From positions 806,001 to 870,000 of the forward strand of contig JANTQA010000032.1 of NCBI GenBank assembly GCA_027625915.1: DNA of 64,000 nucleotides. The letters are read 5' to 3'. Every line of letters begins with the position of its first letter. The first letter of the stretch is position 1. The translations under genes and the position numbers were made by a program. A model generated the notes under the pieces. The model ran no database searches. It was not told the origin of the DNA and saw only the letters and a list, made by a program, of their open reading frames with translations. This DNA comes from Anaeramoeba flamelloides (Eukaryota; Metamonada; Anaeramoebidae). This document shows, piece by piece, positions 1-56,903 of this stretch.

Positions 1-2259
1 AAGATCACAATACAATATCTTTCAATTTTAGAGGCTTTCTAATTAAAACGTTTAGGAAATAGCAATTTAAACACTTTTTAGCTGTTCTATTTAAATAAAA
101 ACAGTGTAAAGTTTTTGAAAGTTTAACAAATATTTTTCTTTTCGATAACTTTCAAAATTTTGGATAAATTTCAAAAGTTATATTTTGTTAAATATTAGAG
201 TAGTTGTGTAATTTATAACGAACATTGTTTAAAAATACAAACAATTGCTTAATTTAAATTATATATTGCTTAAAAAGAAATATTTTTAGGCAATCATACC
301 TATTGCCTAATTAGTAATATTTTAAACAATTTTATGTTATAGAAGCAAAAAGAATTGAAACTATTCCAAACAATTGGAAAATTTATTTATAAAAAGAACT
401 TGTTTTTTAAAATAAGAAATATACAAAAATTGATAATAAAAGAATCATTTTAAAAAATTCAAAAAAAAAAAATTTACTATTATGTCACTCAAAAATGTTC
501 AACATTTCAAATAAAAAATTTTTTGATCAATATTCCAAATTTTAATTTTTCATTGATAGAATAATATCCAATAGATATTAAATTTATATCTCTCATATAA
601 GATTTATTTATTTTTTAATTATAACTAATTATTAAATTTTTTGGAATAGTTACAAAATACGAAAATAAAAAAGTAAAATTGCAAAATAACAAAAAAAAAA
701 AAAAAACACCCAAAAGATAAACTAATGTTTTGTAAAAAAATGATTTTAGTAAAATACATTTTTAATAAATTTTAAAATTTTTTATTATAAATAATAAAGC
801 TAATGAAAGTTTCTCTTATCCTTTAGCTCCTTTATTAATAAAAGTTCTGATTTGCTGAAAAATTCAAAAAAAAAAAAAAAATTCGCAAATAATCCAATAA
901 AATTGAGAACTTATAAAAGAAAAAAAATTTTTTTTAACTAAAAATTATTAATAAAATTAATCTTTAAAAACAAAATCTTGAATAAAATTGAATTTAAGGG
1001 GAATAAGGTCAATTTTATGAAATATGTTCTTTCTATTAAACAAATGATTTATTAATTGCTCAATAATTGTCTGAATTGTTCAGTTTATCGAATGATTGCG
1101 AATAAAACAATCAATTGTGTAAATTATTTTTATTTCGCAATAGAAAATATATTACACAATATTAATTCTTTATTACGCAACAACTGTTTCTTTTATACAA
1201 ACCAATTATACTTTTACGAAACGACTCTATTATTTTTTACCCTTTTTTGTTTGGAGAATAACTGTTTCAGATATGTAAAAAATGATGTCTTAATATTTTA
1301 ATTTTTTATACTAAATTTGTCATTTTTCCAAAAACAATAAAAATTTTCCTATGTCCCCCGACCAGAGAGCATAGGAAAAGTTTTATAGTTTTTGGAAAAA
1401 TGACAAATTTCCTATAAAAACTTAAAATATTAAGACTTTTCTTTTATGATAAATGATAGTATTTTAAAAAATGTAATTCAATTAATCATTATTCTAATAA
1501 GAACTGAGCTATAATTTTAAAACTTAGTTTCTTACATAAAAGAAATTATTCACAATTAAACAACAATTTCTCTAAGATTAACAATCATAAACGGTTTCTT
1601 GGATAATTTTGGTTTTATGTTATTTTTTTCATTATTATACATTTAGATCAATTTGAAAAAAAATAGTAAAGATCTCATTTGAATTGTTGTTGTTGTTTCA
1701 ATTGTTGGAAATTCCAACCCAAGGTTAAATAAACGGATTTGAAAGAGATATGTCTTTAACTTCATGAAGACTTTTCAAATCAAAAAAAACTTTATAACTA
1801 ACATAATTTACACTCTTAACAAAAAGTAAATATTCAAAATAAAATTATTTTGTTTCTAAATTTTTATGATAATTCATCAGATTTAAACAAACTTTCTGTG
1901 AAAATTTTTTATTCCAAAGCTTTCAATTATATATATCAGAAATATCCTAAAAACTGTTGAAATAAAAAATAATAAATTTCTATTAATAATATTTTTCAAT
2001 ATTGTAATTTGCTTAAAAATTCTTTTTGATTTTTGTCCATTTTATTTGTTTTTTGCTTTTATAATTATTTGAAAATATTATTATATTTTCCAATTGGTAG
2101 AATTCAATAACTCATTATAATTAGAACGTTAAATTTCTTCTTTAAGAAGTCTTAAATTCTTTGAATACAAATTAATTTTCTTGTTAATTTATTCTTTGGT
2201 AAAATTATATTAATTTTCAAAAAACAAGTCAGCGATAATTTTTTAATTTATTTTTGAAT
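1..2259. other. AT-rich region without a gene
   Basis: Very AT-rich sequence with many A and T runs. The short open frames have no recognisable motif and biased low-complexity composition, so I call no gene. The one clear structure is the large hairpin at 1287-1436. Confidence 0.6.
1287..1436. repeat. Large inverted repeat (150-nt hairpin)
   Basis: Two arms of about 67-70 nt are near-perfect reverse complements. The left arm holds TTTGTCATTTTTCCAAAAAC and ends in TTTTCCTATG; the right arm starts CATAGGAAAA and holds GTTTTTGGAAAAATGACAAA. They flank a 16-nt, GC-richer loop at 1354-1369 (TCCCCCGACCAGAGAG). The outer parts of the arms also pair (GTCTTAATATTTTAA against its complement near 1430). 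It could be a palindromic MITE or a transcribed hairpin RNA; the sequence does not decide. Confidence 0.75.
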
Positions 2260-3299
2260 TTAAGGGAGTAGTCATTTTTGAAAATAAAATGAAATCCTGT
2301 CAAGATCTTGAAAATTTTTTTTTTGTAATTTGTGTTTCGGCTTATGAAATATCTACATTAACACCATTTAAACAATTTATTGATTTGAGTCTTGTATTTG
2401 AAATTCAAAATTCTCATGTTTTCAATATAAAACGAAAAAAAGTAACCAATTATTTTGTTCAAGAATTAACTTAATTCTTGAAAATCGGAAAAGATATTTT
2501 TCATTTTATATTGTAAAGTATTGATTTCGAAAACAAATTTTTTATTTGGTTTCTTTTTCTTTGATTAATATTTCGATTCAAATCAAATGGATAAAACTAA
2601 TTGTGGTATAGGTGATTCAATAAATGAATATTTGGTAGAAGATTAACTACAATTTATCAATTAAATTGAGATCTATTATTCAAAAAATATTTTTCTTTAA
2701 TGTTTTGAAAAACTTCTTTTCTTGTTTTTAAAAAATGCCAAAAAAAAATGTAGAGAAATTTTTAATTTTGAAAAATTTTTTAACAAATTGTTTGTTCTTA
2801 TTCACAAGAACCTTTTTACCAATTAAATCATTTTTGAAAGAAAAAAATTGATTCTGAATTTTGAGGATAAAATTAACTAATTCCCAAATATCTTCAAGAT
2901 AATTTTATTTTGTATAATCAAATTCTATCTTAATACAAAAACAAAATTTTAGAGTAAAAATTTTAAATGACTTTATAACTTTGATTATTATAACTATAAT
3001 TCTTTAAAAAATACAATTATTGTTTAATATGTTGAATATATCAATTTTTTGGTTAACCAAATGTTTTATCTCAAAAAAGAAAAAAAAATCTTTATGTAAA
3101 TATTACTGGTAAAAAAGACTTGTTATAGTAAACTATTTTTCAGACAAAGTGGCCCAGTTGTGATGGGTATCATATATGTGTTTAAAGGGTTTGCATAGAT
3201 ATTAGAAGAAAAATTTTATTTTGGAAATTTTTAAAATTGATATCATTTTTACACATTTTTGTTTTTTTTTTCGATTTTTTTTGATAATGTAATTCAGTT

Positions 3300-43769: not shown

Positions 43770-44976
43770 TATTAATTTTTTTTGTTTTCCAAATATTTAT
43801 TTCTTTGTTTGGATTATAGTCAAATTTAATAAGTTTTGCTATTTCTTTATATTTTATTTTGTTAAGTTTTTGGATAAATTTCCATTTTATCAAGTTTACA
43901 ATCGTTTTAATGGGTAGCAAGTTGATTTCATTTCGATACGCTAAGACTGGAGTAGATCTTTGAATTTTAAATATTTTTGTAATATGGAGATTAATTAGTA
44001 TATCAATTTCTTCGTATTCTTTTTTTGTGAAACTAAATAATTCTAGTCCATATAACAGTTGACTCAAACAAATAGCTTTATATAGGATAATTTTGAGGTA
44101 ATTAGATAATTCGTTTGATTTGAATATATATTGATATTTCCAAAGAGTACAATTACATTTCATTTTATTGTTAAATATATGTGTTTTTTATCAAATTTTA
44201 TTCCTAAATATTTGATTTTTTTAAGTTTGTTGGTGACAACAGTTTTGTCCGTATTGACCTTTAACCCAAACTGTTCAATTATTTTATATATTTTTTTAAG
44301 TTTTTTTTTGTGATTTTTTGATTTTATTATAATTATCATGTCATCGGCAAACATTTGTATATATTTAACTACTTTTTTAATTTTTAAAATTAAAAAATGA
44401 CTAACAAAAGCAAATAAAATTGGCGATAGTGGGTCTCCTTGATAAATGCCTCTTCCTTCACCTTTATAGTATTTTAATAAAAAAATTTTTAAAATTTTGT
44501 TTTTTATAATTGTTTTAATTGATTCTCTTATTAGACTGTGATGAATTGAATCAAAACATTTTGCTATATCTATTGTTACAATCTTTATTTTATTTTTTTT
44601 CAAATCTTTTAATTTTAATTTTTTTAAAAAATTAAGAACTGGTATTCTAGTTCTAAATCCAAATTGTTTCTTTGAGATAAATTTCCAGTAATATTTAATT
44701 TTTTTATATAAAATTTTAAGGAATATTCTAGAAATAGCTTGATTTATTGAAATTGGTCGATAGTTCATTGGATCTCCTATATTTCCCTGTTTATATATAA
44801 ATAGCATTTTTCTTGATTTGATATAGTCTAATTCATCATCTGAGAGAATAAGTAACCAATCATTGAAAATATTTTTTAATGTCAATAAAAAATTAAAATA
44901 TATTTTATCAATAATTTCTTTATTAGTATTTTTATAATTCGATAGTTTGTCAAAATCCGAAACACTTTTATTTTTA

Positions 44977-45174
44977 CAGTCAGTTTCACTTTTAAGGCAC
45001 AAACTTTCAACGAAATTTAAGGCATAAAAAAAAAATCTCAAATTAAAGCACAAAATACATATTCTAGTAAAACAAATTGTAAAAAAAAATATTTCAAATT
45101 TTGTACCTTAATTTGATATTTTTTTGTACCTTAAATTTCGTTGAAAGTTTGTGTCTTAAAAGTGAAACTGACTG
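44977..45174. mobile_element. Palindromic MITE, copy D
   Basis: 198-bp palindrome, TA at 44975-44976 and 45175-45176. It lies between the endonuclease and reverse transcriptase segments. The LINE frame resumes at once on the far side (KSVSDFDKLSNYKN). Confidence 0.92.
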
Positions 45175-46359
45175 TAATATAATTTATTGTGTTATATATT
45201 TCATCAACACTAATAATTTCTTTATTTTCAAACATTTTTTTTTTCAAAAAAAAACATTGTATTTATTAGAATTTATTTTTGTATTTTTGATAAATTTAAT
45301 AATATTAGGATTCACTTTTGGACATATTGAATTGATATGATTAAAAAAAATTAATTTCCATATTTTTATCATTATAAATTATTTTTTTTGAGTTACCTCG
45401 AATTTTTTTAATTTTTTTCCAAAAATTAAAGTTTGTGTTACATTCTATATGTATTGATTTTAGTAAAAGTTTCCAGTTTTTTGATTTAGTTCTATTTAAA
45501 TTTTTTATTAAATAAGGGTTTTTGAATATTGATTTAATTAAATTTGTTGTATCGATATTGTCGTTATTTGATTTAATTAAATATCTTTTGTAGCTTTTGA
45601 ATTTTTCTTTAAAAGTTGTCATTTTCTCTTTATTCAAGAAGTAAAAATTTTTATCTATTCTAAAATAATTTGTAAATTCTTTCTGAAATTTGATGTTATT
45701 TTTAGCTCTATATGTAGGAATTAATTCGTTTTTAGTATTTATTGAGAATAAATTAATTATCATTTTATGATCTGATATATGTGTCTGAATAACTTTCGAT
45801 TTTTCATAATATTGTTGTTTATTTGATACAAAGTAATCAATATTTCTTTTTCCACTGTTATGACAATTTTGAATAATTCTGAAGTTTAGTTTTTTTAAAT
45901 TAATTTTTCTTTTAATTTCGTGTGGTTTTAAGTTGAAGTCGCCACATAATATTATTTTAAATTTTTTATATTTATCTAAATATTTATTGAGACTTTTTAA
46001 AATTGTTTTTTTTTCTCTACCATGTCTCAAATAAATATTTATGAAGATAGTATTAAATATTTTTATAACCATAATATTTTGGTTTTTGGTCAGGATCTCT
46101 TCAAAGAAATTTCTAAAATAGTATCTGAAATAGATAATCAGTCCACCCTTTTTTTGATTTTCCCCATATTCTTTTTTGAAGTAGCAAAAGTAATGGTGGA
46201 GATAAGGAGGTTTTGAGAGATTGCTTTCTTGTGTATAGTATATATCAATTGATTTTTTCAGTAAGAGTGATTCTAGCTGGTTTATTTTATTAATTTTTAA
46301 AGTCTTGTTATTTTCTTTTTTTAGTTTAAATATACCATTAATATTAAGAGAAGAAATTT

Positions 46360-47714
46360 TTACAAAAAATTTCTCCATTTTTTTAATATTTTTATTTCTG
46401 CCTTTTTGTATACAGTCAGTTTCACTTTTAATCCAATTAAATGGAATTTGATACTATTTGGTATAATTTGAATTTTCTTTTTACATAATTTAAAGATTTT
46501 TTTCATAATATTACGTGAATCCCATATTTCAATAATATTATTTCCAATTAATAAAAGTCTTTTTATGGGGAGTCTGTCGATAAGCTCAATGATTGTAAAA
46601 AAGCTAATATTGAATGAATAAAATCTTATTTTATTGAGGTTGTTTGCATATATTAGACTATTATAATTTTTAATATTTTTTTTAAAATATTTCTCTGAGA
46701 ACCCATATTGTGTTGTAGGTTTTAAATAATAATTAATTTTAAATTTATTTTTTATTAAATAATTATTTAATTGGGGTGTCAATTCGATAATGAGGTATTT
46801 GGATTGGCGGGCATAATTGCTAAAGTTAATTAAGTGGCTATAGTTTATTGATTTTTTAATCCAGTTTTTAAAATTTTCATAATTGATTTCAGTTGTTTTA
46901 AAAAGATGAATTTCTTTTTTAAAGATTTTAATAATTAGTTTTTTAATCATTTGTAGCCTTTTTTTCTCTGTTGTGTTCTTGGTCATAACTTGTTGTCTTG
47001 AGTTCAGTCTTATTATCAAGGATGCCTTAAAAGGAGTTTTTTCATTTAGAAATCTAGTGTATAAGTCATTTTTAGTTTCATTTTTGATTTTTGGAAGTTT
47101 AATTGGCAATTTACTAGGAAAAGTGTCTTTTCGAATATTTTTTGAATTTTCTAGAGGTTTTTGTTGGATCTTTTTTACATTTGAAAACATTTTTTTGCAT
47201 GCACATTTATTGTCTAAAAAAAGTTTTTTTTTTTGAAAATGATCAGTTTTATGATCCAGTTTTACTAGTGTTTCTCTATTAGAAATGAGGTCAGTTTTTG
47301 TTTGATCTTCACCATAAATTTTTTTTTGGTTTTTTTTTTTGAAAATTTTTCCACATTTTTTTTTTGTTTTTCTTTTTGTTTTTTTTAACTTTTTGTTTTT
47401 CTTTTTGTTTTTTTGAGTTGTACTAAGTATTTTTTAGACAGTTGTATCTCGATTTTAAATTGGTTAATATATAAGTTTTTGCATCTTTGAATTAGTTTTT
47501 TTGGGTAGTCTACTTTGATAAATCCATACTGCATAATTTTTTTTTTTTGTATTTTTGTATTTTCATTATCTTTGTTTTTGCTGTGTAGCTTTTTGTATTG
47601 ACCACTTTGTGAAATTAAAAAGCCTTGTAGAGGGGAGTAGTCTGAGAATATTTTGTAAATGGTTGAAACTGTGAACGTGGAGGGTATATTTTTCAAAAAA
47701 ATATTCCCAACCAT
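46360..47714 (-). pseudogene. LINE ORF1, RRM-type RNA-binding protein
   Basis: Starts MVGNIFLKNIPSTFTVSTIY. An RRM is visible: RNP2-like IFLKNIP, then RNP1-like MQYGFIKVDYP about 55 residues later, at the very N-terminus. A Lys-rich linker with a frame break (about 47385-47330) leads to the second part (47190-46360), a mostly helical, basic region rich in Ile, Asn and Lys (for example KRLLLIGNNIIEIWDSRNI). LINE ORF1 proteins coat the element RNA and deliver it to the nucleus. The frame break means this copy gives no complete protein without slippage. Confidence 0.7.
46411..46431. repeat. Isolated MITE terminus in LINE ORF1
   Basis: TACAGTCAGTTTCACTTTTA matches the MITE end with its TA, but the palindrome does not follow. 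It is read in frame within ORF1 (LKVKLTVYKK). It could be a deletion remnant of an insertion or chance. Confidence 0.5.
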
Positions 47715-50095: not shown

Positions 50096-51658
50096 ATGAG
50101 TTCCAAATTTTCTGAACAAATGGATCTAGAATTTGAAGATGACAGATTAAGAGAGTTATCGTTCACCCCCTTTTTACCTCCAAATGAGGTCTTTTTAAAA
50201 AATTCAAATGAGGGCTCTGACAAAAACGAAAAATGCTTCAGGCCGATTGACTCTTTGACCCAAACCCAGATTAAAATGTTCGTGTTGAACCAAATGAAAA
50301 ACCAAGAGCTTTCAAATTATGAAAATGACGAAATGAAAAATTGTGGCTTCACTCATGAGAAAGGATCTTTTTGGAGCAACAACGAAGATGAAAACCAGAA
50401 TTTTAACAATTCTGAGAATTACAATTATCAGAATAATAATAGCTTCAACAGTGACTACAACACCAACAGCAATAATAACAGCAGTAAGAACAATAACCAT
50501 CACAACAACAACCGAAGCCTCAACAACAATAATTGTACTAGTAATAGCAATGGTAATAGTAATCAAAAATTTCTCCAAATAAACCAATCAGCATTTTATG
50601 ATCCAGAGTTTATTAATTTTCTTGATCAGGAAATCAAAGAAAACGTGTACTCGTCAGAATGTGTGAATTCGTTCCCATTAAAAATGCCAGAATTTGAAGA
50701 TCAATTAGTGTTTGGAGAACAACGAAACTATGATTTTTGCTTTGAAAATAAGGCCAACAAGCAAAACATTAACAAATATTCGGACATTGAAATCGACGAT
50801 CTTTTAACAGACAATTATAATAATTTATCTGAAGCTTCCATACAGACGGCGAACCGGTCACTAATAAAGCCAGTGATAAGGAACAAAAGCGAAAACATGA
50901 GTAAGAACAAGAATATGAACAATAATATGAACAATAATATGAATCTGAATATAAATATGAACAAGACCAAGAGCAAGAGCAAGACCAAGGCCAAAAATAA
51001 GAATAAGAATAAGAATAATAAAAAGAAAAAGAAAAGCAAAAGCAAAAGCAAAAACAATTATGATAATGAATATACAAATACTTTTGCCAACCCACCGTCC
51101 CCAAAAATCCCAACCAACAAACCAAGAATAACTAATAAAAAAAATTGCAAAAATATTAAAAAAAAAAGTGGTTCTTTTTCAAAAAGAACTTTTAAACAAA
51201 AAAGCCTTTCAAAAAAAGACAAAAAAAATATACTGTTAATGGAAAAATACCCAAAGAAATTAAATTCCAATAAAAATGAAAGATACAATAATTATAAAAA
51301 AAATAGAAAAAAATATTTTAAAGATAAAAAAGGGATTTATATTGAAGATGGATGGGGACAAAAAACATACCAAATTTTGCCTGGTGATAGATACGGACTA
51401 AGGATCTTGAAAAAAAAGCGAAGAACACGCAAAAAGCGCCAAAATATCACCGAAAATGCGCGCAAACTTTTAGAGAAATGGTTTCAGAGGCATTCGAACG
51501 ACCAAAATGGTCCATATCCGGACAGAATCACGCGGATTAGACTTGGGATACGAACAGATACACCGGAATTACAAGTTCAAAGATGGTTTGGCCAGAGAAG
51601 GAGAATTGAAAAATCACGTTGGGAAAATGGTAAAATTGAAAAGCCATCCTGGATGTGA
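50096..51658 (+). CDS. TALE-class homeobox transcription factor
   Basis: A single exon of 520 residues. The first 440 residues are low-complexity: acidic start, Asn-rich runs (about 120-160), then Asn/Lys and Ser/Lys repeats (about 265-330) likely to act in nuclear import. The homeodomain occupies about 441-508: a basic arm (KKRRTRKKRQ), helix 1 (ENARKLLEKWFQRH), the TALE three-residue insertion PYP at 473-475, helix 2, and recognition helix 3 (QVQRWFGQRRRIEK). Spacing from PYP to WF equals that of TALE proteins. The otherwise nearly invariant Asn51 of helix 3 is Gln here (W497-F498-G499-Q500), and position 50 is Gly instead of the TALE Ile. It probably binds DNA, but with altered specificity. 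Confidence 0.9.
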   Translation: MSSKFSEQMDLEFEDDRLRELSFTPFLPPNEVFLKNSNEGSDKNEKCFRPIDSLTQTQIKMFVLNQMKNQELSNYENDEMKNCGFTHEKGSFWSNNEDENQNFNNSENYNYQNNNSFNSDYNTNSNNNSSKNNNHHNNNRSLNNNNCTSNSNGNSNQKFLQINQSAFYDPEFINFLDQEIKENVYSSECVNSFPLKMPEFEDQLVFGEQRNYDFCFENKANKQNINKYSDIEIDDLLTDNYNNLSEASIQTANRSLIKPVIRNKSENMSKNKNMNNNMNNNMNLNINMNKTKSKSKTKAKNKNKNKNNKKKKKSKSKSKNNYDNEYTNTFANPPSPKIPTNKPRITNKKNCKNIKKKSGSFSKRTFKQKSLSKKDKKNILLMEKYPKKLNSNKNERYNNYKKNRKKYFKDKKGIYIEDGWGQKTYQILPGDRYGLRILKKKRRTRKKRQNITENARKLLEKWFQRHSNDQNGPYPDRITRIRLGIRTDTPELQVQRWFGQRRRIEKSRWENGKIEKPSWM

Positions 51659-53558: not shown

Positions 53559-56500
53559 TTAGAGGTCAAGTTTTTCAATTTTAACTTCCCTACAGACAAT
53601 TAAATCAACACCTTCTTCCCCTAAGATATTTTTAGCGACGACTTCACCACAATCTGTATCTTTTTGAATGAAAATTTTGTGGATTTCTTCGGAACCTTCG
53701 ATTAATTTGTCTTTTGGTAAAGGATTTGAAAGTTTGACTGGGACAACGTTAACGTTTTTGAAAGTGGAGTCTAGTCTTGGGGCGATTGTTGTTGAGAAAA
53801 CTCTTCTTGGGTCGACGAATTCTTGGATACCATATTCGACACCCTTTGGGCATCTGTTTCCTGTGACCTTGACAACTTTTTTACCGTGGTGGAATACATC
53901 TAATCTACATCCTTCGGGACAACAGACACAGGTGATGTGTGATAATTGAGCGTCTTCGGTGTGTGGTTCCTTGATCATTTTAGCTTTTTCTTTCTTTTCT
54001 GGGAGTTCTTCAAGAGAGACTTCTAATTCCAATTTTCCGCCATTTTCGTCGGCTAATTTTTTCAATTTCTTGATTTGCTTTCCCTTAATTTCAAAGATGA
54101 TCATTTCTGCAGGCAAGATTGTTTTGATTGTTCTCGACAAAACCTTTTTACCGGAGATCTTATCGGTGACAGTAAATTTGGCAGCGCTCATGATTTTTTT
54201 GGAACGGAGGGAAAGGGTTAGTGGGAGATCCTTTCTGTTAAAGGCTTCCAAGTCCTTGGAGAATCTTTCTGGGACGACATATCCGACATTTTGTCCTGTG
54301 CTGATTGTAATTTCTGATGGTTTGAAATTGAATTTGTCTTTCAAGTAAAGGACAGCAGATTTACCTGCCTTTAGGCCCTCTTCGGTGACATTATCGACAA
54401 TATCATGTACGTGTAATACATTACCACATGAGAAGATACCTGGGATGTTGGTCATCATTTCGGAGGATACCTTGGCACCTTTAGTCTTTGGGTTCATTTC
54501 AACACCGATGGTTTCGGCGAGATCGTTTTCTGGGATCAATCCGACAGATAATAAGAGGGTGTCGCATTCCAAATCAAAGGCTTCTTCCATGATTGGCTTC
54601 CATGTCTTTGGATCGACTGGTGCAATTGTGACCTTTTCTAAACGCTTTTTACCGTGGATCCTGACAACGGTATGAGATAATTTCAATGGGATACCGTAAT
54701 CTTCGAGACATTGGACAACATTTCTGTGTAAACCGGAGCAATTTGGTAAGATTTCAAAGACACCGAGGACCTTGCATCCTTCAAGGGCTAATCTTCTTGC
54801 CATGATCAAACCGATGTCACCAGAACCAAGGATGACTGCGGTTTTACCGGGGATGACGCCCATTTCGTTGATCATTTTTTGTGCCAAACCGGCAGTGTAG
54901 ACACCAGCTGGTCTGTCACCTGGAATGGAAATAGCGGCTCTTGTTCTTTCCCTACATCCCATACCTAAGATGACTGTTTTGGCTCGTACATTGGCAATGG
55001 TACCGCCGAGTTCTGATCCAACGAGTACTCTTAATTTTTTGATTCCGGTTTCTTCGTTATTTTCCATTTCATAGACATATGAACTAGTGTAAACTTCGGC
55101 ACCGGCTTGTCTGGCTTCAACGCCTACTCTGTGTGCGTATTCTGGTCCAGTTAATTCTTCACCAAAGTATTTTAATCCAAATCCGGAATGGATACATTGT
55201 GTCAAAATACCACCTGTGACTGGCTCACGATCAAAGACGACAACATTTTCAGCGCCTTGTCTTTTAGCTGATGTAGCTGCAGCGCATCCTGCGCCACCGC
55301 CACCAATAATGGCAACGTCGTAGATCTTGGATTCCAATTTTCTCTTCAATTTTTTACCGTCTGGTAACTCTCTCTTTCTGAACTTGTGTTTGAGGATGGC
55401 CTCTTGTGTCTTTAAGTTTCTTCTTGGATCGTCCCATTCAGGCACCAAGATGTTGGATCCTTCTCCAAACTTGGAGATTGTTTCTAAGGGGACGTTCATT
55501 CTATAGGACAATAGTTCCATGATTCTCGAACTACAGAATCCACCTTGGCATTTTCCCATACCGGCTCTTGTTCTGAATTTGATACCATCCATGGTGTCAG
55601 CACCGTGATCAATGGCTGATTGGATGTCACCAACAGTGACAAATTCACATCTACAGACGACATCACCATAGTTGGCGTCCTTTTCAACGGCGATTTCTTG
55701 TTCAATTGGAGACATTCTGGCAAATAGTCTCAATGGGTTGTCTAATTTGCTAACCCATTGTTTCTTTTGCTTTCCGGATAATTCTGGCCAGATCTTGTCC
55801 AAAATGTTCAATACATAGTCACCAATGGCTGGTGCAGCAGTTAACCCTGGGGATTGGATACCAGCAACGTTGATAAATTGTTTATTCTTTTCGGAGACAT
55901 CAATGATGAAATCGGCTGTGTGTGAAGCTGCTCTTAACCCGGCAAAGGAGGCAATTACACCCCTTTGTGTGATTAATGGAGACAAATTATTTTCGGCAAA
56001 TTCAAAGATCTTTTCAATACCATCACTTGAGGTTGTCAAGTCGTCACGATCGTCGACGTTTAAGGCGGTTGGCCCACACATGACAGTCTTGTCAACAGTT
56101 GGGATGATCAATGTTCCTTTGGAGACCTTGTCACCAACTGGGAAAATAACGTGGTGGAACAAGTCGTTGAAGGATTTGTCTAAAAGGTATTCTTCTCCCT
56201 TTCTTGGGTGGATTGTAAATGATTCGTCACCGATCATACGTGCAATTTTATCTGTGTATAAACCGGCTGCATTGATTACATACTTAGTTTCAATGTCGCC
56301 CTTGTTGGTGTGGATCACAAACCCGCCGCCAGATTTTTGATCAATCCCTGAGACTTCGGTTTGTAATTGGAAATCACATCCGTTAATTTCAGCAATTTCT
56401 CGAAGTGCAAATGCAAATTCATATGGATTGATGACACCTCCAGTTGGCCCGTAAACAGCTAACAAAATGTCATGGCTTAAGTTTGGTTCTTCCTTTCTTA

Positions 56501-56903
56501 ATTTGTCTTGTCCCCAGATCTCAATTGGGATTCCCTTTTCGTTGGCGATTCTTGCAATGTCCATGATCTTGTTGATTTGTCTTTGATCTCTTGCAACAAC
56601 AAGTTCTCCAATTTGCTTATATCCAAAATGTAATTCCTTGGCTAATTTTCTAATAGCTCGGTTACCGTGGTGTACCAATTTTCCTTTTAATAAGGATAAT
56701 TCAGTATGGAAACCTGCGTGAACAATTCCAGAGTTGGCCTTGGTTGTTCCCATTCCGACGTCAGTATATTTATCAATGACTAAGGATTTGATGTCGTATT
56801 TCGAAAGCAGTCTTCCAATCGAACACCCAACACATCCTCCTCCAATTGTAACAACATCATATTGTTGTGTTGTTGTTGAAAATGATCGTGCAATTGTTTG
56901 CAT
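53559..56903 (-). CDS. Fused GlpA glycerol-3-phosphate dehydrogenase, FAD/NAD oxidoreductase and DUF1667
   Basis: One intronless frame of 1114 residues joins three proteins that are neighbours in many anaerobic bacteria. Residues 15-490: GlpA-type FAD enzyme oxidising glycerol-3-phosphate (VVTIGGGCVGCSIGR, ANSGIVHAGFHTE) with a BFD-like [2Fe-2S] domain (C417-x-C419, C452-x4-C457 in GKCQGGFC). Residues 525-850: pyridine-nucleotide oxidoreductase with two Rossmann motifs (VAIIGGGGAGCAAA, AVILGSGDIGLIMARR). Residues 985-1110: DUF1667 with C992-x-C994-C995-x3-C999 and C1018. The first 14 residues (MQTIARSFSTTTQQ) look like a mitochondrial or hydrogenosomal presequence. The enzyme probably passes electrons from glycerol-3-phosphate to NAD or an acceptor in a mitochondrion-related organelle. 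GC content is clearly above its surroundings, consistent with transfer from bacteria or strong expression. Confidence 0.93.
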   Translation of the reverse strand: MQTIARSFSTTTQQYDVVTIGGGCVGCSIGRLLSKYDIKSLVIDKYTDVGMGTTKANSGIVHAGFHTELSLLKGKLVHHGNRAIRKLAKELHFGYKQIGELVVARDQRQINKIMDIARIANEKGIPIEIWGQDKLRKEEPNLSHDILLAVYGPTGGVINPYEFAFALREIAEINGCDFQLQTEVSGIDQKSGGGFVIHTNKGDIETKYVINAAGLYTDKIARMIGDESFTIHPRKGEEYLLDKSFNDLFHHVIFPVGDKVSKGTLIIPTVDKTVMCGPTALNVDDRDDLTTSSDGIEKIFEFAENNLSPLITQRGVIASFAGLRAASHTADFIIDVSEKNKQFINVAGIQSPGLTAAPAIGDYVLNILDKIWPELSGKQKKQWVSKLDNPLRLFARMSPIEQEIAVEKDANYGDVVCRCEFVTVGDIQSAIDHGADTMDGIKFRTRAGMGKCQGGFCSSRIMELLSYRMNVPLETISKFGEGSNILVPEWDDPRRNLKTQEAILKHKFRKRELPDGKKLKRKLESKIYDVAIIGGGGAGCAAATSAKRQGAENVVVFDREPVTGGILTQCIHSGFGLKYFGEELTGPEYAHRVGVEARQAGAEVYTSSYVYEMENNEETGIKKLRVLVGSELGGTIANVRAKTVILGMGCRERTRAAISIPGDRPAGVYTAGLAQKMINEMGVIPGKTAVILGSGDIGLIMARRLALEGCKVLGVFEILPNCSGLHRNVVQCLEDYGIPLKLSHTVVRIHGKKRLEKVTIAPVDPKTWKPIMEEAFDLECDTLLLSVGLIPENDLAETIGVEMNPKTKGAKVSSEMMTNIPGIFSCGNVLHVHDIVDNVTEEGLKAGKSAVLYLKDKFNFKPSEITISTGQNVGYVVPERFSKDLEAFNRKDLPLTLSLRSKKIMSAAKFTVTDKISGKKVLSRTIKTILPAEMIIFEIKGKQIKKLKKLADENGGKLELEVSLEELPEKKEKAKMIKEPHTEDAQLSHITCVCCPEGCRLDVFHHGKKVVKVTGNRCPKGVEYGIQEFVDPRRVFSTTIAPRLDSTFKNVNVVPVKLSNPLPKDKLIEGSEEIHKIFIQKDTDCGEVVAKNILGEEGVDLIVCREVKIEKLDL

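Follow-up and report, generated by a model that had tools for sequence, protein, structure and literature searches.

The locus and its fused gene

This study concerns a stretch of 64,000 nucleotides of the Anaeramoeba flamelloides genome (assembly GCA_027625915.1, contig JANTQA010000032.1, positions 806,001 to 870,000), hereafter the window, which was placed on contig C33 of the 254-Mb genome, and within it a minus-strand frame at 53559-56903 that begins with ATG, contains zero internal stops and encodes a protein of 1114 aa. The four domains named in the first-pass annotation, DAO, [2Fe-2S] BFD, Pyr_redox_2 and DUF1667, were all found by Pfam above their curated cut-offs. They stand in the order that marks the fused protist glycerol-3-phosphate (G3P) dehydrogenases, in one chain, and the window protein is a further member of this known GlpTk-NOX-MOX type. 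The fusion itself is neither new nor uniquely eukaryotic: the Giardia and Entamoeba enzymes are in print, the same architecture is published for Spironucleus, and bacterial fusions exist too. We consider it probable that the gene represents, in A. flamelloides, the fused G3P dehydrogenase known from anaerobic protists, with the electron path, reversibility and operon-capture origin proposed below. The features of the locus are as follows.

53559..56903, minus strand: whole fused G3P dehydrogenase gene, single exon (intact frame, six copies, dN/dS)
56862..56903, minus strand: N-terminal leader, residues 1-14 (MQTIARSFSTTTQQ), which bears the motif R-x-F-S and is a candidate for hydrogenosomal targeting (in all six copies)
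55812..56858, minus strand: DAO / GlpA-GlpO-like FAD domain, residues 16-364, with G3P site S58, H62, K262, R324, S351 (Pfam DAO, 2.7e-68)
55509..55661, minus strand: BFD-like [2Fe-2S] domain, residues 415-465, with C417, C419, C452, C457 (Pfam PF04324 Fer2_BFD, 7.4e-13)
54402..55322, minus strand: pyridine-nucleotide FAD domain, residues 528-834, with FAD GxGxxG 534-539, NAD GxGxxG 693-698 and E717 (Pfam PF07992 Pyr_redox_2, 5.9e-31)
54006..54311, minus strand: beta-rich region between flavoprotein and DUF1667, residues 865-966 (AlphaFold2 strands, block predicted local distance difference test (pLDDT) 86-96; zero Pfam matches)
53850..53930, minus strand: C992-x2-C995-x3-C999-x18-C1018, a probable [4Fe-4S] site opening the DUF1667 module (Cys conservation, Molybdop_Fe4S4 similarity, fold matches)
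53589..53849, minus strand: DUF1667 Pfam core, residues 1019-1105 (Pfam, 4.6e-17)

The frame is a real gene and no chance open reading frame, because the genome holds six full-length copies, arranged as three pairs, of which the five others show 83-97% identity to the window protein and every one is intact, and because the ratio of nonsynonymous to synonymous change (dN/dS) between the copies is 0.046-0.096 in the five of 15 pairs that were tested. A DUF1667 profile search of the genome returned six loci, all of them these copies and no others, and the top two among the protein matches listed are A. flamelloides proteins named "glycerol-3-phosphate dehydrogenase", 90 and 83% identical. On contig C24, both dehydrogenase copies and both FGGY-kinase loci lie in two far-apart stretches, at about 7.9-8.1 Mb and 17.3-17.9 Mb, which may be a large internal duplication.

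Domains, active sites and the DUF1667 module

Conservation was read from 126 aligned rows, comprising the window protein, 45 of the 120 proteins of the first search and 80 bacterial loci; the protein matches examined were the best 120 of 439 and the best 120 of 2256. The residues S58, H62, K262, R324 and S351 were assigned after what we take to be the G3P-site residues of GlpO, and they are conserved in the residue table of these rows. GlpO is also the closest solved fold to the FAD domain, and this first domain fills the fold-match list of the full AlphaFold2 model. With the Giardia orthologue oxidising G3P in vitro, site conservation and fold together support G3P as the substrate of the FAD domain. 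Among more specific families, the equivalog cut-offs were not reached for TIGR03377, the canonical GlpA of GlpABC (128 of 552.8 bits), PRK11101, GlpA (105.3 of 425 bits), or NF033460, the GlpO type 2 oxidase (248.1 of 460 bits), and DAO_C PF16901, found in GlpD and mitochondrial GPD2, is absent from the window protein's Pfam matches. All four cysteines of the BFD domain, as well as the acidic residue E717 of the second flavoprotein, are kept in 126 of the 126 rows. An acidic residue at this type of position confers a preference for NAD, and the sequence thus supports a probable NAD-type identity for this flavoprotein.

The DUF1667 module opens with a C-x2-C-x3-C-xn-C motif whose four cysteines are invariant in 39 of 39 DUF1667 sequences. 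Within this family, 29 of the 39 match Pfam Molybdop_Fe4S4 at E <= 1 (best 1.9e-5), the window protein's own score of 14.1 bits falling short of the 22.7 cut-off, while the fold matches of the DUF1667 start, at low Z, are the Fe4S4 domains of Nap, FDH, NuoG and Nfn-ABC. From motif, profile and model, it is probable that DUF1667 proteins start with a [4Fe-4S] domain of the molybdopterin-oxidoreductase type, which is new in this analysis and lets a [4Fe-4S] cluster be predicted concretely for DUF1667. Residue C1104 was observed to be Cys in 14 of the 15 eukaryote-group rows described below and mostly Thr in the other rows (75 of 111).

Some relatives extend this architecture into flavodoxin, CPR-like or Nfn-like modules, likewise new in this analysis. 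The metagenome protein P0121 (2549 aa), placed with the eukaryotic fusions in the concatenated tree, joins the fused dehydrogenase to a flavodoxin-like segment plus an Nfn-like pair; an insert of intein type (Hom_end_hint 1623-1694, Hom_end 1834-1910) splits the Nfn-A-like part. P0011 (EukProt, 1560 aa) bears a C-terminal CPR/CysJ-like flavodoxin-FAD-NAD module on the same enzyme, and P0005 a C-terminal FMN-reductase/flavodoxin-2 domain, seen also in P0006-P0010 by precomputed Pfam (P0005-P0010 each being about 1315 aa). A NagD-type HAD domain accompanies the GlpA-BFD-flavoprotein fusions P0054, P0062, P0064, P0066, P0076, P0098 and P0107, confirmed by a closer look at P0064; the GlpA-BFD tree described below places two of them, P0054 and P0064, with bacterial rows.

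Bacterial operons and origin of the fusion

The claim that the bacterial counterparts are adjacent separate genes was borne out: among the best 80 of 591 loci from the genome_contigs scan, 70 hold GlpA, flavoprotein and DUF1667 in the protein's order, while nine have no DUF1667 call and one no GlpA, several of these at contig ends. GlpA and flavoprotein frames are separate at 75 loci and fused at five; at L057, the flavoprotein is joined to DUF1667 and GlpA stands apart. Since a GlpK, GlpF or G3P-antiterminator-like gene adjoins 28 of the 80 operons (at the other 52 none was found within the available flank), there is good ground for tying the family to glycerol metabolism. A NagD-like gene was also noticed at three of the 80.

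Phylogeny of each domain, proposed in the first-pass annotation as a check, was congruent for the first two modules and gave one eukaryotic group. All 15 eukaryote-group rows stood together in both the GlpA-BFD tree (461 columns; Shimodaira-Hasegawa-like approximate likelihood-ratio test (SH-aLRT) 90) and the flavoprotein tree (326 columns; SH-aLRT 83), and each tree added five bacteria, identical in the two, to make a set of 20 rows (99); the five are a Proteobacteria metagenome-assembled genome (MAG), Geitlerinema, Nitriliruptoraceae and two Trueperaceae (L070, L076, L048, L085, L088), which carry separate frames in all cases. The DUF1667 tree, made without 11 loci and 15 three-part fusions, has too few columns to resolve and does not show the eukaryote grouping. 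In a concatenated tree of 54 rows, 48 from the 126 and six new and hand-picked, the 20-row set returned at 99 and the five bacteria formed one clade, with an open fork between them and two eukaryotic groups; constraining the eukaryotes to one clade improved the log-likelihood (lnL) by 5.65 and was not rejected by the approximately unbiased (AU) test (p-AU 0.655), a clade that was defined after the trees had been seen. The eukaryote-group label is putative for P0003, P0005, P0007 and P0009 in the first trees, and for P0003, P0005, P0121 and P0123 in the concatenated tree and AU tests. The eukaryotic fusions thus group beside five bacteria with separate genes, which is new in this analysis. Eukaryotic contamination of these nearest loci is unlikely for L076, with an adjacent CP43/PsaL-type photosystem gene, and for L070, with an adjacent NifU gene; L048 is truncated where its contig stops. 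The L076 frame in question (1418-2920, minus strand) is cyanobacterial, its first part matching CP43/antenna models and its second part PsaL models.

According to Lalle 2015, repeated by Jeelani 2023, the gene arrived ready-fused from an Eggerthella-like gut actinobacterium, and the AU test of this hypothesis was therefore set from print. An Eggerthellaceae MAG does encode a relative, P0135, in which the four domains are all fused, and a common anaerobic gut niche was argued in PMC4450592 and PMC10480196. Nevertheless, holding the eukaryote-group rows, P0135 and its neighbour P0108 as a clade costs 165.7 log-likelihood units (p-AU 9.3e-69), a clade of the eukaryotes with all seven other four-domain fusions gave p-AU 6e-55, and the nearest bacteria keep their genes separate, so that such a donor is hardly credible. 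A single origin of all four-domain fusions is rejected by the same p-AU of 6e-55, and a single origin of the seven outside the eukaryotes by p 1.3e-54 (the bacterial label being putative for P0018, P0024, P0078 and P0138); the bacterial four-domain fusions arose separately from the eukaryotic ones, again new in this analysis.

Our reading is instead a single capture of the three-gene operon and a single fusion, in or before these eukaryotes, in which a protist ancestor would have acquired a bacterial glycerol operon whose genes then fused in order. Entamoeba is nested among fornicate rows in three trees, which fits a later eukaryote-to-eukaryote transfer. The published gut-protist oddity is hereby extended to a free-living anaerobe and to Trimastix, Dysnectes, Chilomastix, Hexamita, Spironucleus and Kipferlia, several metamonad lineages; with this wider spread, a 'recent gut transfer' becomes a testable older operon capture, and the proposed donor is corrected.

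The arguments from base composition and introns have no force. The higher GC and missing introns pointed out in the first-pass annotation stand as measured, with a GC of 0.415 against about 0.23 for the adjacent kilobases and a single frame, but not as a pointer to transfer. Coding GC in the same genome is 0.42-0.44 for succinyl-CoA synthetase (SCS)-beta, 0.34-0.44 for [FeFe]-hydrogenases and 0.44-0.47 for glycerol kinase, lower values being found in spliced genes (IscU frames 0.28-0.39, SCS-alpha-type frames 0.34-0.38, NAD-G3PDH 0.32-0.38), and SCS-beta and glycerol kinase are single open frames as well. Because conserved native genes match both features, neither singles out the dehydrogenase, whose GC is at the top of the native range and inside it; a signal of recent transfer in these features is rejected, given the equal coding GC of the SCS-beta, hydrogenase and glycerol-kinase frames. 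Elsewhere in the window, reverse transcriptase and endonuclease frames resembling a retroelement of the non-LTR (non-long-terminal-repeat) type lie at 44160-47190 (minus strand), and a homeodomain protein of 520 aa in one frame lies close to the dehydrogenase at 50096-51658 (plus strand).

Compartment, metabolic setting and mechanism

The leader described in the first-pass annotation as Arg/Ser/Thr-rich and organelle-directed does exist. Six of the six genome copies begin with 14-15 residues of the pattern M-[QY]-[TS]-[IL]-[AS]-R-[SP]-F-S before YDVV, the first nine residues being unstructured in the AlphaFold2 model (pLDDT < 50). It was found in A. flamelloides only and, as a possible organelle-import tag, is the one feature that sets this member of the family apart: it was absent from the seven non-flamelloides eukaryote-group rows of the alignment, and P0014, P0121, P0123 and P0124 have different, longer N-termini. 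The orthologues in print are mainly outside the organelle, which weakens the case for import. The leader reaches about 11 residues above the median start of 164 homologues. A canonical peroxisomal targeting signal 1 (PTS1) was not seen by eye at the C-terminal ends of the dehydrogenase copies.

Profile searches of the genome found NAD-G3PDH at seven loci and FGGY kinase at two, one of them checked as glycerol kinase, whereas PF16901, the GlpD/GPD2 C-domain, gave 0 matches, with six of 14 control genomes positive. In the mechanism that we propose, G3P and dihydroxyacetone phosphate (DHAP) would trade hydride with the FAD of the GlpO-like domain, single electrons would reach the second FAD by way of the [2Fe-2S] cluster in the BFD domain, this FAD would trade hydride with NAD(H), and the predicted [4Fe-4S] cluster of the DUF1667 module would be an extra one-electron port, either to a relay or to a partner of ferredoxin type. 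Catalysis probably runs both ways, serving G3P oxidation in A. flamelloides and DHAP reduction to glycerol in Entamoeba. Oxidation is the more likely direction in A. flamelloides because glycerol kinase and a separate NAD-G3PDH would supply G3P there, while the 45.5% fall in glycerol on silencing in Entamoeba (PMC10480196) points to DHAP reduction in that organism. The earlier proposal of G3P oxidation linked to NAD(H) or another acceptor keeps its substrate and its NAD-type flavoprotein, but oxidation would be one of two possible directions, the Entamoeba data favouring the reverse in that organism.

Other chemistries and places of action have to be weighed against this. The FAD domain could serve mainly another 2-hydroxy acid, such as L-2-hydroxyglutarate, whose oxidase model gives 151 bits, with 8w7f third among the solved folds and some relatives carrying the name LhgO; since GlpO is closer in both fold and family, glycerol genes adjoin 28 of the 80 bacterial operons, and the Giardia orthologue is reported to use G3P and to be inactive without it, we regard this as very improbable. 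Another view would make the enzyme electron-bifurcating or -confurcating, in which the second FAD would couple G3P/DHAP, NAD(H) and ferredoxin, and DUF1667 would be the cluster on the ferredoxin side. An extra [4Fe-4S]-type module would be superfluous for plain NAD-linked transfer, and the energetics parallel those of confurcating lactate dehydrogenase. Moreover, relatives are fused to an Nfn-like pair (P0121) or a CPR-like module (P0011), and Nfn-ABC 9bov is among the matches of DUF1667 in both sequence and fold. A role from Fd/NADH to NADP+ was also guessed for the bacterial operon in a P. thermosuccinogenes paper. Bifurcation is nonetheless unlikely in our judgement: the window protein has no further dedicated bifurcating domain among its Pfam matches, many homologues lack DUF1667 (fusions of about 910 aa), and 9bov ranks amid many non-bifurcating molybdopterin enzymes.

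As to compartment, the leader may take the dehydrogenase into the hydrogenosome, where it would form a soluble G3P shuttle with cytosolic NAD-G3PDH and hand electrons to NAD+ or ferredoxin and then to [FeFe]-hydrogenase. Beside the conserved, unstructured leader itself, R-x-F-S occurs in none of the 18 further long frames that were sampled, no acidic residue stands in the first 15 of the five leader sequences scored, NAD-G3PDH and glycerol kinase are present without the GlpD/GPD2 C-domain, glycerol kinase starts without a leader, and the Giardia orthologue is in part at mitosomes during encystation. These are countered by the poor background of the 18 frames (hydrogenase paralogues make up 11, and among the first Met codons several are probably internal), by the SCS-beta and IscU presequences of A. 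flamelloides, which at about 28-32 residues are unlike this leader, by starts of equal or greater length in 21 of the 164 homologues (two of them A. flamelloides proteins), by the leaderless start of P0003, 59% identical, and by the chiefly cytosolic Entamoeba orthologue. On the sequence, hydrogenosomal import is plausible, with the balance tipping somewhat against it; if the leader works, the enzyme would be a membrane-free substitute for mitochondrial glycerol-3-phosphate dehydrogenase. The full combination, a G3P:NAD oxidoreductase that is imported into the hydrogenosome and coupled to ferredoxin by bifurcation or confurcation through DUF1667 as ferredoxin port, acting as a quinone-free mitochondrial-type shuttle in place of GPD2 and descending from one ancient uptake of the operon close to the root of the anaerobic metamonads, is quite improbable. 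A PF02906 search found the [FeFe]-hydrogenase large domain 48 times in the genome, with scores of at least 272 bits in 26 cases, a large family; no clear leader was readable in the 20 frames fetched, of which several first Met are probably internal.

Comparison with known systems

A search of one literature collection joining Anaeramoeba with glycerol-3-phosphate returned a single paper, unrelated to the subject. From E. coli GlpABC, whose GlpA likewise has DAO and BFD (PMC11962113), the window protein differs in its flavoprotein of Pyr_redox_2 type, in the TIGR03377 cut-off not reached, and in that a GlpC-like part was not seen among its Pfam matches; Mycoplasma GlpO (4x9m) is a stand-alone oxidase without Fe-S or NAD modules. 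The bacterial three-gene operons, such as those of Caloramator (L018) and Clostridium lacusfryxellense (L013), have the same module order next to glpK, glpF and the G3P antiterminator, though with GlpA and flavoprotein mostly as separate genes. Among such operons, that of Pseudoclostridium is reported to be over-expressed when CO2 is limiting, and losing two genes of a glycerol-linked operon in Thermoanaerobacterium, which may be the present one, seems to reduce glycerol slightly. In Thermococcus kodakarensis GlpTk-NOX-MOX, the three modules are likewise present, but each is reported as a subunit of its own in a complex, from separate genes; Schmerling 2025 (PMC11962113) named the family, described there as "fused in protists"; no archaeal row was knowingly included in our trees.

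The closest likeness is to the fused protist enzymes. Entamoeba histolytica EhG3PDH (Jeelani 2023, PMC10480196; 1066 aa) has DAO, Fer2_BFD, Pyr_redox_2 and DUF1667 in a single chain and differs in being mainly cytosolic, with silencing lowering glycerol, and the leader is lacking from the orthologues of E. dispar, E. invadens and E. marina. Giardia gG3PD (Lalle 2015, PMC4450592; GL50803_16125, 1111 aa), whose sequence is outside our aligned rows, has relatives in Spironucleus and Entamoeba; it is mostly at the plasma membrane and partly at mitosomes during encystation and is reported with no predictable targeting sequence, in which it differs from the window protein. G3P dehydrogenase activity among the fused protist enzymes was seen in print for Giardia only, at 86.7 nmol/min/mg for the enzyme and 30.5 for the N half alone, with no activity in the absence of G3P, and the enzyme dimerises via its C half. 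The window protein shares with it an identical module order in a single polypeptide, that of a flavoprotein using G3P.

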